64,000 bases of DNA from Saccharofermentans sp. (GTDB lineage Bacteria > Bacillota > Clostridia > Saccharofermentanales > Saccharofermentanaceae): the NCBI GenBank assembly GCA_024403795.1, contig JAKSRD010000002.1:1-64000 (forward strand), in the 5' to 3' direction. Below the pieces are notes generated by a model. It worked only from the letters and a program-made list of their open reading frames with translations. It ran no database searches and was not told the origin of the DNA. The stretch's first letter is position 1. Every line of letters starts with the position of its first letter. The position numbers were made by a program, and so were the translations under genes. Positions 42,370-44,273 of the stretch are shown here, piece after piece.

Positions 42370-42390
42370 GCCGTTTTAACACGTTTTTGC

Positions 42391-42430
42391 AGGCACTCTG
42401 AATTTTTTCGGGGTGCCTTAAAATTTTCTG
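42391..42430 (+). terminator. Terminator after infA
   Basis: AGGCACTC (42391-42398) pairs with GGGTGCCT (42411-42418), one G-T pair, followed by TAAAATTTT. The loop itself is T-rich. It separates the secY and rpmJ transcripts. Confidence 0.55.
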
Positions 42431-42458
42431 TTGAAAACTGTATAAATTTTGCTATAAT
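42431..42458 (+). promoter_or_regulatory. Sigma-A promoter for rpmJ and the alpha operon
   Basis: TTGAAA (42431-42436) and a perfect TATAAT (42453-42458) are 16 bases apart. Predicted start near 42465. The leader contains CCTG and CAGG segments that could pair over the rpmJ ribosome site. Confidence 0.75.
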
Positions 42459-42526: not shown

Positions 42527-42640
42527 ATGAAAGTACGACCGTCAGTAAAGCCGATGTGCGAGAAGTGCAAGATCATTCGTCGCAACGGTAAGGTTATGGT
42601 CATTTGCTCAGACCCCAAGCATAAGCAGAGACAGGGTTAA
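42527..42640 (+). CDS. rpmJ: Ribosomal protein L36 (bL36)
   Basis: A 37-residue large-subunit protein: [27 protein letters not shown] and a basic tail. The zinc-binding Cys-x2-Cys, a later Cys and a His are kept, so it is the zinc (C+) form. CAGGAGG ribosome site 7 bases upstream. Confidence 0.97.
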
Positions 42641-42854
42641 GTAAATTGACGGGCTTTCGAATTGTACGGAATTAGCCCCGTACGCCAAAAGAAAGCCGCG
42701 GGATATAAGCTCCTTCCCGCAAAGAACACATTTTGAAGGAGTAATCATATTTATCACCGTGACCGAGAGGGCGGCTGCTCCCAAAAGGAGTTCCTTGACT
42801 TACGCGTGTCAAATAGCGATTAATACCACTTTATCCAGTATGGAGGTACATTAA
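42641..42854 (+). promoter_or_regulatory. Structured leader between rpmJ and rpsM, candidate ribosomal protein control site
   Basis: A 214-base gap in an otherwise tight operon. GGCTTTC (42652-42658) pairs with GAAAGCC (42691-42697) around an inner perfect stem (42664-42669 with 42678-42683). A second perfect 6-bp hairpin follows (42698-42703 with 42715-42720). Part of its loop and stem, CTCCTT (42710-42715), is complementary to AAGGAG at 42736-42741, a possible pseudoknot. A short TTGAC/GTCAA hairpin lies at 42795-42812. The S4 gene, whose product controls this operon by a leader pseudoknot in Escherichia coli, is downstream. That S4 binds here is inference. Confidence 0.5.
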
Positions 42855-43223
42855 ATGGCTCGTATAGCCGGCGTAGATTTACCGAATGATAAGAGAGTTC
42901 AGATTGCTCTTACGTACATTTACGGAATCGGAAGAACAAGTGCAGACGAGATTATTGCTGTTACAGGCATAAATCCCGACACACGCGTAAAGGATTTGAC
43001 AGAGGATGAGGTTGCGAAGATTCGTGACCAGATCGAGAACAATTACAAGGTAGAAGGTGACCTCAAGCGTGAGATTCAGTCTAACATCAAGAGACTTACA
43101 GATATCGGTTGCCTTCGTGGACGTCGCCACAGACTGGGACTCCCTGTAAGAGGCCAGCGTACAAAGACTAATGCTCGTACTCGTAAGGGTCCTAAGCATA
43201 CAGTTGCTGGTAAGAAGAAGTAA
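42855..43223 (+). CDS. rpsM: Ribosomal protein S13
   Basis: A 122-residue small-subunit head protein: [53 protein letters not shown] and a basic tail contact tRNA and 16S rRNA. A TGGAGG ribosome site precedes the ATG. First gene after the structured leader. Confidence 0.97.
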
Positions 43224-43673: not shown

Positions 43674-44273
43674 ATGGCTAGAGATATGACACCTGTCCTT
43701 AAGAAGTGCAGAGCCCTCGGTATTGAGCCTGCTTTCTTAGGAGTAGAGAAGAAAGAATCCAAAAAGCACGGTGCATCCAGACCTCGTAAGATGAGCGAGT
43801 ACGGTATGCAGCTTAAGGAAAAGCAGAAGGCAAAGTTTATTTATGGCGTTCTTGAGAAGCCTTTCAGAAACTATTTTGAGAAGGCTCAGAAGCTCAAGTA
43901 TGGTACAACCGGTGAAAACCTCATGATCCTTCTTGAGACAAGACTTGATAACGTTATTTTCAGAATGGGTCTCGCTCGTACAAGAGACGAAGCTAGACAG
44001 ATCGTAAGCCACAGAGAAGTTAAGGTTAACGGCAAGTTCGTTAATATCCCTTCTTATGCGGTAAAGGTTGGCGATGTTGTTGAGATCAAGGATAAGGCTA
44101 AGAGCTCACAGAGATTCAAGGACATCATCGAAGTTACAGGTTCAAGAGCAAATCCTGCTTGGGTTGAGTCTGATAAGGAGAAGCTTTGCGGCAAGATCCT
44201 CGCAATGCCTACAAGAGATCAGATCGAAGTACCTGTTAACGAAGTCGCAATCGTCGAGTTGTATTCTAAGTAA
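43674..44273 (+). CDS. rpsD: Ribosomal protein S4
   Basis: A 199-residue primary 16S rRNA-binding protein with the S4 RNA-binding domain (LETRLDNVIFRMGLARTRDEARQIVSH). The N-terminal zinc-binding four-Cys cluster of some S4 proteins is absent; only one Cys is near the start, so this is the zinc-free form. In many bacteria it represses its own operon. Confidence 0.96.
   Translation: MARDMTPVLKKCRALGIEPAFLGVEKKESKKHGASRPRKMSEYGMQLKEKQKAKFIYGVLEKPFRNYFEKAQKLKYGTTGENLMILLETRLDNVIFRMGLARTRDEARQIVSHREVKVNGKFVNIPSYAVKVGDVVEIKDKAKSSQRFKDIIEVTGSRANPAWVESDKEKLCGKILAMPTRDQIEVPVNEVAIVELYSK

Follow-up and report, generated by a model that had tools for sequence, protein, structure and literature searches.

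A structured RNA leader upstream of rpsM in the Saccharofermentans alpha operon: a class-wide GCGGCUG hairpin joined to a genus-specific 5' domain as a putative autogenous control element

Ribosomal protein S4 controls the alpha operon in Escherichia coli. Its leader there (Rfam RF00140, Alpha_RBS) lies before rpsM and forms a pseudoknot that takes in the ribosome binding site of this gene. This pseudoknot and a different rpsD leader in B. subtilis are described in the accessible text of PMC10931766, according to which Clostridia retain rpsD in the operon. The rpsD (S4) leader of Bacilli, that of Grundy and Henkin, carries a GUAA motif (described in the accessible parts of PMC7247131 and PMC10931766). 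Closest to the present case, Eckert and Weinberg (2020) predicted an S4 leader in Clostridia before rpsM-rpsK-rpsD-rpoA-rplQ, its 5' end bearing a conserved GAAA; going by the accessible text, S4 was presumed to be the ligand by argument, as the known ligand elsewhere (PMC7247131). The idea that an S4 leader precedes rpsM in Clostridia is therefore not new. The accessible parts of four further papers (PMC8040213, PMC2965389, PMC2864571, PMC6429828) make no mention of a leader before rpsM.

The window analysed here is a 64,000-nt stretch of a Saccharofermentans sp. contig (JAKSRD010000002.1), and the named organisms closest to it are Saccharofermentans and Ruminococcaceae bacteria, for the most part assemblies from rumen and gut. 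Its alpha operon region reads infA, rpmJ, a 214-nt gap, rpsM, rpsK, rpsD, rpoA and rplQ, every gene being identified by NCBIfam. The features of the locus are:

42431..42458, forward strand: sigma-70-like promoter TTGAAA-16-TATAAT with extended TG, before rpmJ (consensus scan, 11/12 matches)
42527..42640, forward strand: rpmJ (L36), the gene 5' of the leader (TIGR01022)
42842..42846, forward strand: rpsM Shine-Dalgarno sequence GGAGG (by sequence; kept in the family alignment)
42855..43223, forward strand: rpsM (S13), the first gene 3' of the leader (TIGR03631)
43674..44273, forward strand: rpsD (S4), the candidate ligand gene (NF003717, TIGR01017)

The original prediction placed a structured leader of 214 bases between rpmJ and rpsM, and this length is exact, the rpmJ stop lying at 42640 and the rpsM start at 42855. 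It also put the other gaps of the operon below 50 bases, which holds downstream (rpsM-rpsK 16, rpsK-rpsD 41, rpsD-rpoA 45 and rpoA-rplQ 27 nt) but not for infA-rpmJ, where the gap is 157 nt and holds the strong promoter-like site. Because of the position of this site, the operon probably begins at rpmJ, with the 214-nt gap as an internal leader, and the predicted promoter is probably the start of an rpmJ-rpsM-rpsK-rpsD-rpoA-rplQ transcript. A hairpin 3' of infA (42389-42425) with a weak T-rich tail looks by eye like a possible terminator, on which the terminator scan was silent. A coding role for the 214-nt gap was rejected, as no forward-strand ORF of at least 36 aa begins there.

At its cut-offs, Rfam 15 matched nothing in the window or in 20 relatives; relaxed thresholds brought up only weak Alpha_RBS and chance matches in the same set. 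RF00140 itself was rejected for the window, at 19.9 bits against a curated cut-off of 38 and with the aligned letters falling mostly on the start of rpsM; the best score among the 20 relatives was 33 bits (L099). Like the E. coli leader, that of the window precedes rpsM of the alpha operon, whereas its core hairpin ends at 42815, before the Shine-Dalgarno sequence at 42842. With the Bacilli leader, as described, it shares the Firmicutes and the link to S4 autogenous control; it differs in standing before rpsM rather than a stand-alone rpsD and in that GUAA is not conserved, being found in 6/66 class leaders on the 5' side and 21/66 on the 3' side. With the Clostridia motif it shares class, operon, position before rpsM, covariation and S4 as presumed ligand. 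However, only 18 of 66 class leaders have GAAA in the 60 nt that precede the bulge described below, and the accessible text of PMC7247131 names no GCGGCUG and does not describe the genus-specific 5' domain, so that the two elements are compared by description only. The independent Clostridial S4 or S13 control element of the original prediction thus survives as a conserved, widespread leader unlike the E. coli pseudoknot, but the idea was already in print in 2020 (accessible text of PMC7247131).

The 214-nt gap folds at −60.5 kcal/mol, compared with −49.5 kcal/mol for dinucleotide shuffles (z = −2.6; 2 of 200 shuffles as good), bearing out the claim of a structured leader. The 5' 87 nt alone are more extreme (z = −4.4; 0 of 200 shuffles as good), while the core hairpin of the window, taken alone, is little more stable than its shuffles (z = −1.3). 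The corresponding values in four relatives were −2.7 (L025), −1.25 (L144), −1.55 (L131) and −3.8 (L156). Support for the core hairpin in the window is thus comparative. From sequence comparison, we conclude that the leader is real, structured and conserved, and that it consists of two domains, a 5' part confined to the genus and a 3' part shared widely across the class. The 3' part has the following elements:

42748..42815, forward strand: core hairpin (R1 match, covariation in relatives, fold)
42748-42752/42811-42815, forward strand: outer pairs of the core
42755-42762/42800-42808, forward strand: core stem
42767-42770/42793-42796, forward strand: inner stem of the core
42771..42777, forward strand: bulge GCGGCUG, the proposed ligand-recognition site
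42778-42781/42787-42790, forward strand: apical stem of the core

Within the family, rpsM was matched in 91 of 98 genomes. We took 90 loci and removed two second copies of rpsM (L158, L159) and three duplicates, giving 85 distinct leaders; three genomes with an rpsM match were left out (G026, G095, G096). The rpmJ-rpsM gaps of these leaders range from 156 to 245 nt, and the bulge is invariant, as exact GCGGCTG, in 84 of the 85. The longest gap, that of L012 (G063:C1), lies at a contig end and has the start of rpsM partly duplicated in tandem, probably an assembly artefact. In the family leaders, nested helices (AUAU/GUAU, ACACG/CGUGU and GUAAGG/CCUUAC) lead up to the bulge, which faces two bases on the opposite strand and is followed by an apical hairpin. 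In the predicted fold of the window, two G-U pairs are possible at the loop edges, leaving a bulge of five bases.

RNAalifold applied to all 73 distinct family cores returned only four pairs, the window's subgroup having been wrongly aligned by MAFFT. Covariation and the model were therefore based on 36 family relatives of our choosing; since this subset excludes the window's subgroup, the window sequence itself is outside this test. In these 36, 90.8% of cells are paired (85.7% shuffled), the covariation score is 0.320 (0.218 shuffled; 0/500) and double changes occupy 65 cells (23.6 shuffled; 0/500). A model built from the 36 cores (R1) matches the window at 42747-42823 (25.8 bits, E = 0.005). 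In the order, it finds 92 of 188 genomes, in 7 of 30 genera. Scores for the window and its closest relatives are weak (21–31 bits), because the helices have drifted while the bulge and the inner and apical stems have been retained.

The wider distribution of the bulge was assessed in 100 further Clostridia loci, picked by us among the matches listed at about one or two per family. Of these, 80 have rpmJ-rpsM gaps of at least 70 nt, 19 have shorter gaps and one has no rpmJ match. Exact GCGGCTG occurs in 65 of the 80 long gaps (13,477 nt, where ∼0.8 occurrences are expected with equal bases), or in 61 of 76 when four loci chosen for their R1 match (L298–L301) are excluded, and in none of the 19 shorter gaps. 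Ranked by sharing among the long gaps, it is the second heptamer, directly behind the Shine-Dalgarno heptamer GGAGGTG (66/80). It was also found in 8 of 12 further non-family loci with a long gap and rpsD, three of them Alicyclobacillaceae. The helices around the heptamer diverge in sequence across the class, but the helix-GCGGCUG-helix design is retained, 53–233 nt before rpsM. Scored over the class loci plus 22 hand-picked earlier loci, this design reaches a median of 28, compared with 13.5 when the flanks are shuffled, and 71% of loci exceed the 95th percentile of the shuffles. In 21 of 65 loci every other position scores lower than that of the bulge, and the share of other positions that do as well has a median of 1.25%. 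R1 gave no match in 36 non-family loci, and it is therefore the heptamer, its architecture and its position that carry the link across the class. A phylum-wide pattern (GCGGCTG-GGAGG-ATGGC) was too unspecific to be used.

Other kinds of leader occur in the same gap. L255, L257, L276 and L292 have a type reading AGCAGGGUYAGGC ... GGGUGAAAUUCUGCUCC, with GAAA near its 3' end and without GCGGCUG. The leaders of L092, L099 and L218 are of a Butyricicoccus type, also without GCGGCUG; L092 and L099 (1429-1533) score 30–33 bits with Alpha_RBS, under its cut-off of 38.

The 5' domain (42652-42720) consists of a stem, a hairpin with the invariant loop AWUUAGCC and a second hairpin with AGCUC in its loop:

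42652-42658/42691-42697, forward strand: outer stem of the nested stem, which spans 42652..42697 (covariation, 29 genus leaders)
42664-42669/42678-42683, forward strand: inner hairpin, with octaloop AAUUAGCC at 42670-42677
42698-42703/42715-42720, forward strand: second hairpin (42698..42720), its loop with the conserved AGCUC

Among 29 leaders of the genus, 92.2% of cells in this domain are paired (80.7% shuffled), the covariation score is 0.327 (0.139 shuffled; 0/500) and 61 cells carry double changes (14.5 shuffled; 0/500). The second hairpin is paired in 93.4% of cells in alignment A3, mainly through invariant pairs. Searched against the order, a model of the domain (R2) matches 53 of 188 genomes, which all belong to a single genus out of 30; a further, weak match (G006:C19, E = 0.08) probably arose by chance. 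The nested stem and the second and third hairpins of the original prediction are thus all present. The first two covary in the 29 genus leaders, and the check it proposed, covariation in related Clostridia, comes out positive for the third hairpin, in the 36 family relatives (0/500, the window subgroup being absent). Its pairing of loop 2 with a downstream AAGGAG did not hold up and was dropped: among 26 leaders with GCUCC in loop 2, GGAG lies between hairpin 2 and the core in one, the window. By eye, loop 2 (CUYY) may pair with the rpsM Shine-Dalgarno sequence. The UAGCC of the first loop is able to form five pairs, one of them G-U, with GGCUG of the bulge; both are invariant, so that covariation is uninformative on this pairing.

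We propose, with a probability of roughly 0.6, that the 214-nt gap is a cis-acting autogenous feedback leader of the alpha operon, with S4 as the leading putative ligand. It has the general mark of a ribosomal protein leader, a conserved, covarying RNA consistently placed before one ribosomal-protein operon. A protein of the operon, most likely S4 but possibly S13 or S11, would bind the GCGGCUG hairpin when it exceeds 16S rRNA, and once bound would lower translation of rpsM and the genes coupled to it. As a feedback switch, the leader would most likely match ribosomal protein output to need. Translational control is favoured over attenuation because the terminator scan reported no terminator-like sites inside the 214-nt leader. 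The genus-specific domain would probably tune the core, by stabilising it, by blocking the bulge or as a second input, and could show how such leaders acquire parts. The choice of S4 as a first guess follows the E. coli precedent and the Clostridia prediction as presented in the accessible text of PMC7247131.

The gene for S4 lies in the operon in the window and in nearly all of the class sample. Among L057–L111, no gap exceeds 45 nt in any of the 13 operons without rpsD; 11 of these 13 are Synergistales, and relatives with rpsD (L063, L064, L098, L100) are short-gapped too, which confounds the correlation. In a sister family, the heptamer is present in 9 of 12 genomes, and rpsD is absent between rpsK and rpoA in 5. 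Three genera without rpsD (L304, L305, L306) keep the leader with the bulge intact, and a divergent, stand-alone rpsD is found in rpsD-less sister genomes (L303, L347, L350, L351, L352). These stand-alone S4 proteins form a clade separate from operon S4 (support 99), within a tree where the rpsD-less genera are not one clade and several nodes are weak (15–53). This suggests that, in the rpsD-less sister genera, a divergent S4 encoded elsewhere took the place of the native one. A leader retained without native S4 in cis implies either that S4 acts in trans or that the ligand is another protein of the operon, and its retention in three genera makes S4 a less convincing ligand in cis.

It is accordingly conceivable, if somewhat doubtful, that the leader is of the same kind but binds S13 or S11 (or L17) and tracks rpsM and rpsK instead of rpsD. 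Besides the intact bulges beside a replaced S4, this would fit the absence of GCGGCTG from the 400 nt before the stand-alone rpsD in four of the five cases; the fifth (L351) has the heptamer upstream and the near-identical L350 does not. Yet the leader is missing from the rpsD-less genus g18 (L310, L311), where it was lost, little remains of the apical stem in L306, and S4 could still act on the operon in trans. We also know of no S13 or S11 leader. Since the GCGGCUG hairpin persists where rpsD has been lost and replaced, the idea can be extended to a two-domain, two-state leader, in which the class-wide site would bind S13 or S11 rather than S4 and the UAGCC loop of the genus would gate the bulge, a combination we regard as unlikely. 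The sister family, with rpsD gone, S4 replaced and the leader kept, is a natural experiment in which S4 is testable against S13 or S11.

Two further explanations dispense with a ribosomal protein. The leader is part of a message whose start is probably upstream of rpmJ, and hairpins at such positions in a message can be nuclease or chaperone sites, so it might serve processing, stability or folding, for example by separating the expression of rpmJ and rpsM. This seems quite improbable given seven unpaired bases that are invariant class-wide before one operon, which is typical of a specific ligand site. Alternatively, free 16S rRNA might itself be sensed by pairing, GCGGCUG (42771-42777) being complementary at 7/7 positions to what we take to be CAGCCGC of the 16S 530 loop. 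We estimate, however, that ∼9% of random heptamers would be complementary to some stretch of 16S, and direct sensing of this kind is very improbable. The CGGAAUUA at 42667-42674 presumably resembles 16S at about 556-563; searches for a 16S copy came up empty in the window's genome and in 59 genomes of the genus, the window's own included. A seven-base bulge that recurs class-wide before one essential operon and is absent from Rfam 15 makes a clear target for binding experiments. At the distal end of the operon, L17 (45297-45818) is 173 aa long and was matched by its profile in two stretches, the better being residues 98-173, which suggests that the protein has an insertion.
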